Positions 35,351 to 36,468 of a DNA stretch of 48,378 bases are shown here, piece after piece (position 1 is the stretch's first letter; each line of letters starts with the position of its first letter). The translations under genes and the position numbers were made by a program. The stretch lies in the NCBI GenBank assembly GCA_019113265.1, contig DXHT01000024.1:1-48378 (forward strand), given 5' to 3'. The notes beneath the pieces were generated by a model, which saw only the letters and a program-made list of their open reading frames with translations, made no database searches and had not been told where the DNA came from. The DNA comes from Bacillota bacterium (GTDB lineage Bacteria; Bacillota; Clostridia; Christensenellales; Pumilibacteraceae).

Positions 35351-35753
35351 TATCTTTCTCCTTTATTACGGACGCTATCACGCCGTTCACGAAAGCGCGG
35401 CTCTTGTCCGTCGAGTATTTTTCCGCGAGTTTTGTCGCTTCGTTTGCACTTACCGGGCAAGGAATGTCGCTCCGATAAAGTATCTCGTATGTCGCCACCA
35501 TAAGTATGGCAAGGTCTACCTTATATATCCTGTCAATGGCAAATCCGTCGCTTAGCGACGCTATCTTCCCTTTCAGTTCGTCTGCGCGCGAAAGTATGCC
35601 GCCATACGCGCTCTTAATGTATTCCGTGTCGTCATCGGTCATTCCGTGACAGAAAACGGAAAGCGTAAAATCGTCGCGCTCCCCTCTGACCGTGTATTCG
35701 TAAATCAACTTGAACAGCGTTTCTCTCGCCGCAGTTCTGCCTGTATTAAGCAT
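35343..35753 (-). CDS. nusB: transcription antitermination factor NusB
   Basis: [22 protein letters not shown]...[55 protein letters not shown]; start at 35753 with GGAG upstream. Confidence 0.93.
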
Positions 35754-35783
35754 ATAAACTCCGTAAGTATACTTTTGCGGAGC

Positions 35784-35822
35784 GAAAAAAGAAAAGATCC
35801 GCACTACCGCGCACGGATCTTT
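35784..35822 (-). terminator. intrinsic terminator/attenuator in the nusB 5' leader
   Basis: Minus strand AAAGATCCG-tgcgcggtagtg-CGGATCTTT followed by tcttttttc; lies between a promoter (35857-35885) and nusB ATG (35753). Confidence 0.75.
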
Positions 35823-35856
35823 CCGATCGTCCGCCGCATGCTGCTCCGCATATAAG

Positions 35857-35885
35857 AGTATAACACAGCGGCGAACTATTTTCAA
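35857..35885 (-). promoter_or_regulatory. nusB operon promoter
   Basis: TTGAAA (35880-35885) - 17 bp - TATACT (35857-35862). Confidence 0.8.
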
Positions 35886-35988: not shown

Positions 35989-36468
35989 TCACTCCGTGGG
36001 AATGATGCGTATATTCAGCGCCGTCGAACCCGTTTCGGTCATTACGACTTCTTTTATCTGAGTCGCCTGCGTTCCCGTAAGCTCGGCGCATTTGACTATG
36101 ACGTTGATGTTTTCCGTCGTACTCGTGACTATGGCGTCCTCGAAACCCAGACCCTTGATGATGCCTTCGAGAGCGGTCTCGGTCTCCATGTCCTCCATGA
36201 GCTGCAATCTTGCCGCCTCCGCCTCTTCACGCGCCTGAGCGGAAAGATTGTCGGACGCAAGCAGTTCGTCATAGTACAGCAGCGTCTGCTCGCGCGATTC
36301 GGCACGATAGTCGCGGTAGGACGTAAAGAAATCCATGTAAACGTCCGTGCCGCTGACTTCAAGGGCATTGTCCGCAGTCAGATTAAGGACGATATTGAGA
36401 ACGCCCGTAAGCACCAACAGTGCGACCATACCCGTCAGAATGATGATCTTCTTTTTCTTACTTGTCAT
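35989..36468 (-). CDS. spoIIIAH: stage III sporulation protein AH
   Basis: MTSKKKKIIILTGMVALLVLTGVLNIVLN; C-terminal DAIVTSTTENINVIVKCAELTGTQATQIKEVVMTETG. Confidence 0.93.
   Translation of the reverse strand: MTSKKKKIIILTGMVALLVLTGVLNIVLNLTADNALEVSGTDVYMDFFTSYRDYRAESREQTLLYYDELLASDNLSAQAREEAEAARLQLMEDMETETALEGIIKGLGFEDAIVTSTTENINVIVKCAELTGTQATQIKEVVMTETGSTALNIRIIPTE

Follow-up and report, generated by a model that had tools for sequence, protein, structure and literature searches.

The nusB gene in the window (the whole 48,378-nt stretch of DNA that was analysed) lies on the minus strand, with spoIIIAH upstream and folD, xseA, xseB, ispA and dxs downstream. Pfam matches support SpoIIIAH, NusB, FolD, XseA, XseB, a polyprenyl synthetase and DXS at this locus. 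In the direction of nusB transcription, an extended −10 promoter is followed by an intrinsic terminator, the GGAG Shine-Dalgarno sequence and the nusB ATG (Table 1). A second NusB-domain match (G000:C96:16569-16904, L002) resides in a 431-codon open frame, probably that of an RsmB-type rRNA methyltransferase.

Table 1. Features of the nusB leader and its flanking genes in the window.
Feature	Position	Strand	Basis
spoIIIAH, final gene of upstream operon	35989..36468	-	Pfam PF12685, E 4.4e-25
nusB promoter, extended −10: TTGAAA-17-TATACT, TGT before −10	35857..35885	-	sequence and 13 same-genus loci
Predicted short leader RNA, ~67 nt	35785..35851	-	promoter and terminator positions; start placed ~6 nt past −10
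Enclosing pair TGCGGAGC (35850-35843) / GCTCCGCA (35783-35776), window species only	35776..35850	-	computed fold; unconserved, control p 0.56
Antiterminator P1, 5′ strand GCAGCATG	35837..35844	-	A1 columns 11-18; genus-wide covariation; 6/8 pairs in window
Antiterminator P2, 5′ strand CGGA, rival of CGGA in terminator 3′ arm	35830..35833	-	A1 columns 22-25, 88.5% of cells paired
Intrinsic terminator hairpin, 14 bp, 6-nt loop	35791..35824	-	core stem conserved and covarying, 13 genomes
UCCG common to antiterminator P2 and terminator stem, pairing with either	35814..35817	-	A1 columns 42-45, near-invariant
Antiterminator P1, 3′ strand TGCGCGGT, within terminator 5′ arm and loop	35806..35813	-	A1 columns 46-53
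Terminator U tract, TTTTTT	35785..35790	-	sequence
nusB Shine-Dalgarno, GGAG	35759..35762	-	sequence
nusB, 136 aa	35343..35753	-	Pfam PF01029, E 5.5e-25

The promoter consists of a TTGAAA box (35885-35880), a 17-nt spacer and a TATACT box (35862-35857) with the TG of an extended −10. As a match on its own it is at chance level, with 4 seen versus 3.9 ± 2.0 expected in 5.5 kb. We compared it across a sample of 14 genomes of the same genus, 13 of which have this nusB; nusB was not found in the 14th, an incomplete assembly. All 13 loci have the 17-nt spacer and the TGn, with TTGAAA in 12/13 and TATACT in 12/13, and share the consensus TTGAWA-17-TATAMT with TGn preceding the −10. The −35 box starts 9-11 nt past the spoIIIAH stop in 10 of the 13. 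A separate TTGAAA-16-TATAAT (11/12) near the spoIIIAH start (36497-36470, minus strand) may be a chance match.

The terminator hairpin pairs GGAAAGATCCGTGC with GTGCGGATCTTTTC. Stems of ≥12 bp followed by a T tract occur at 5 separate sites on the window's minus strand versus a total of 5 in 20 simulated 48-kb strands, well above chance, and the leader folds more stably than shuffled sequences (z −3.5, 100 nt). The core stem is retained in 13/13 genomes with compensatory changes in the alignment. This conservation in 13 genomes makes both promoter and terminator convincing. In the 13 genomes 14-43 nt separate the end of the hairpin from the nusB start codon (14-23 nt in 9 of them), leaving hardly any room for a promoter 3′ of the terminator, so that transcription of nusB, whether from its own promoter or from spoIIIA, must pass it. 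A preliminary description of this DNA had placed TTGAAA-17-TATACT, then a terminator, then the nusB ATG; that order was confirmed in the window and in all 13 same-genus genomes with nusB. The hairpin it described exists, with limits a few bases from those it gave.

The informative feature missed by that description is a rival helix. The RNA begins with ~25 nt that are complementary to the terminator's 5′ arm and loop, with letters that differ between species: P1 is GUUAUGC/GCAUAAC in L010, GUUGUGC/GCAUAGC in L006, GUCAUGU/GCAUGAC in L008, GAGGCAU/GUGUCUC in L005 and UAGUGGUGCGCG/CGCGCACCGCUA in L013. Cognate strands pair better than partners swapped between species (p 3e-5). Reversing the 3′ strand in the same swap still yielded p 0.013; part of the effect is therefore compositional, and for this reason we gave more weight to shuffle tests. 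Against dinucleotide-shuffled 5′ strands the antiterminator reached z −5.8 (0/1000) and P1 alone z −6.5 (0/2000); as a control, the 5′ strand was tested with the remaining half of the leader as its partner and gave z 0.15. In alignment A1, built from sequence alone, the helix formed by columns 11-18/46-53 and 22-25/42-45 is paired in 77.6% of cells and has 18 double-change cells, where shuffles have 9.1 ± 2.7; its covariation score is 0.384 (≤0.183 when slid). These figures come from few species (13, all related) and, as the register was picked after inspecting the sequences, carry the caveat that attaches to derived structures. The alignment of leaders from relatives that the preliminary description had proposed revealed covariation in the terminator and in the rival helix too.

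The UCCG at columns 42-45 pairs either with CGGA at 22-25, in the antiterminator, or with CGGA at 63-66, in the terminator. Because both folds use this near-invariant UCCG, they are mutually exclusive. When the RNA is cut 5′ of the terminator 3′ arm, the rival hairpin is the lowest-energy fold; in the full RNA the terminator is favoured by energy in 11 species and the rival hairpin in L004 and L013. In L010, L012 and L013 P1 lies mainly within the terminator loop, where it could form a loop-loop contact instead of an antiterminator.

The window's own antiterminator helix is weak, with 10/12 pairs. P2 keeps all of its pairs (35833-35830 with 35817-35814); of the six P1 pairs, three are G-U. In the window species P1 does not outscore shuffled sequence (z +0.96), so it is the relatives that carry the case for an attenuator in the window; L009, L014 and L007 likewise have a weak P1. 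The enclosing pair that the preliminary description proposed is present as an 8-bp helix in the minimum-energy fold of the window and was rejected as a genus-wide feature, being confined to the window species in the 13-genome comparison. It can form only once the polymerase is past the U tract. By inspection of the sequence at 35783-35759, CTCCG can pair with the nusB Shine-Dalgarno ACGGAG, a possible pairing with which the enclosing helix would compete.

The leader was absent from other genera of the family, in which nusB mostly lies behind an Asp23-family gene (identified by Pfam in two examples). A survey by a loose rule, with a background of 34/162, found a hairpin and U-rich tail immediately 5′ of nusB and no leader promoter in sister genera g2, g30, g31, g9 and g8, and no such hairpin in most of g29, among others. 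In g30 (L056, L058, L059, L062, L063, L081) a hairpin (ACCCTATAG...CTATAGGGT) lies directly before nusB, and its 5′ arm contains the Asp23-family stop codon; a terminating ribosome could possibly open the hairpin, which would be translation-coupled control. A covariance model of the leader (R1) has one strong match per genome, at nusB, and matches the window at 35852-35788 (E 3.4e-9, the window leader itself being part of the model alignment). None of eight weaker matches inspected was a second such leader, and several resemble plain gene-end terminators. No Rfam family, rimP-leader included, matched the window above its gathering score.

Comparison within the genus shows a conserved promoter, terminator and rival helix with predicted folds that exclude one another. 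We consider it probable, on these sequence patterns, that the element attenuates transcription of nusB and its downstream genes, with read-through set mainly by a folding race. Polymerase would start at ~35851, just past spoIIIAH, and the opening ~25 nt of RNA would act as an antiterminator by pairing with the terminator's 5′ arm and loop as these emerge. Once out, the terminator 3′ arm would compete for the same UCCG. If the terminator hairpin wins, transcription would stop at ~35785 and release the ~67-nt RNA; if it loses, polymerase would run on into nusB. Read-through would then be governed by elongation rate and by NusA/NusG at the terminator rather than by NusB binding, and we think that these factors decide the outcome. 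The leader would accordingly sit among terminator/antiterminator attenuators by its promoter-terminator-gene order in 13/13 genomes and its covarying, exclusive antiterminator, which is genus-wide with a weak copy in the window. That the switch works in the cell we infer. The preliminary description is partly supported: attenuation is backed by the genus-wide order and the covarying rival antiterminator, whereas the NusB feedback that it suggested is unsupported, boxA not being conserved.

A constitutive partial terminator could instead hold nusB at a low level and block spoIIIA read-through during sporulation without any switching. No other terminator-like site was found in the window sequence between spoIIIAH and the nusB leader, and the promoterless hairpins before nusB in several sister genera are in keeping with a fixed ratio. 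The conserved rival helix is not expected of a fixed terminator, although it would still be compatible with a kinetic tuner whose read-through is constant, and we regard the fixed-ratio explanation as unlikely.

Autoregulation, in which NusB and S10 would bind the leader or the polymerase and change terminator read-through, suits the identity of the gene, and Nus factors control their own genes elsewhere via boxA (suhB in E. coli; nusB, as inferred, in pseudomonads; PMC5725501). At the 13 same-genus loci, however, the boxA-like stretch of the genus (GGCTTTTTGAAGC, derived from two rRNA leaders) has no counterpart in the leader; the best matches have 3-7 mismatches and are scattered, and the B. 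subtilis and E. coli boxA forms are likewise unmatched. The boxA complex, moreover, is known to act on Rho-dependent rather than intrinsic termination. With boxA absent from the leader, we did not place it among boxA/NusB-dependent systems and hold such feedback to be improbable. Upstream of 16S rRNA, L099 and L100 have tandem rRNA promoters that share a CAAGCTGTC start region, together with a boxA-like stretch, GGCTTTT(T)GAAGC, that is conserved in this genus.

The good promoter and clean terminator would also suit a small RNA gene, whose ~67-nt product has its own function and leaves nusB to be transcribed mostly by leakage; a CUCGGA(AAA) stretch is common to about half of the species. Against this, the element is found only at nusB and near its start, it has no Rfam match, and most species lack room for another nusB promoter, all of which makes a separate RNA gene quite doubtful. 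The attenuator structure would in any case yield as by-products both alternatives that the preliminary description listed, a ~60-nt RNA and a stop to spoIIIA read-through. Translational attenuation, in which a ribosome on a short leader peptide (MRRTIGKIRAR, from 35839, in the window) would cover the antiterminator strand and favour termination, draws on a GGAG before an ATG in L003 and L004 and on IRA-like endings in several species, yet is highly improbable and was rejected for want of a conserved short ORF with a ribosome-binding site: L005, L009 and L014 have no start codon near the right place, GGAG-start spacing is only ~2 nt in L006, L008 and L010, and frame and length are not kept between species.

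The attenuator reading has parallels among known leaders. NusA of B. subtilis limits its own gene by stimulating intrinsic termination in the leader (PMC12288461), so that there too a leader terminator controls entry into the gene of a transcription elongation factor; the gene differs, and the nusB leader has a conserved rival antiterminator helix. The rimP-leader of rimP-nusA-infB operons, described by Naville and Gautheret 2010 (PMC2965389), is likewise very short, with a conserved terminator stem, no aptamer-like domain and a Nus-factor operon behind it. Its stem is GGGc/gCCC with no visible antiterminator, in contrast to UCCG/CGGA and an antiterminator at nusB. The boxA-mediated systems also place a Nus factor gene behind a regulatory leader and work via boxA and Rho or translation, whereas the nusB leader has an intrinsic terminator. 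The rpsJ motif of Peptostreptococcaceae (PMC11109978) is likewise a leader RNA from clostridia, lying before the gene for the NusB partner S10/NusE; both the gene and the bacterial family differ. Our literature search covered openly accessible papers, with most subscription papers outside its coverage, and found no described nusB attenuator and no description of how NusB levels are set outside proteobacteria. Within that literature the nusB leader is most likely a previously undescribed attenuator of an already known mechanism class.

The leader is too short to hold an aptamer, and we suggest, tentatively, that a switch at the 5′ end of the nusB transcript may read polymerase speed or a Nus factor without one. 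As a conserved, self-contained 67-nt switch it offers a small construct for testing whether termination controls the gene of an antitermination factor, and by which factor. The downstream folD, xseA, xseB, ispA and dxs would follow the control of nusB. If the suggestion is true, an aptamer-free switch would tie the supply of NusB, and hence the capacity for rRNA antitermination, to the state of the transcription machinery.
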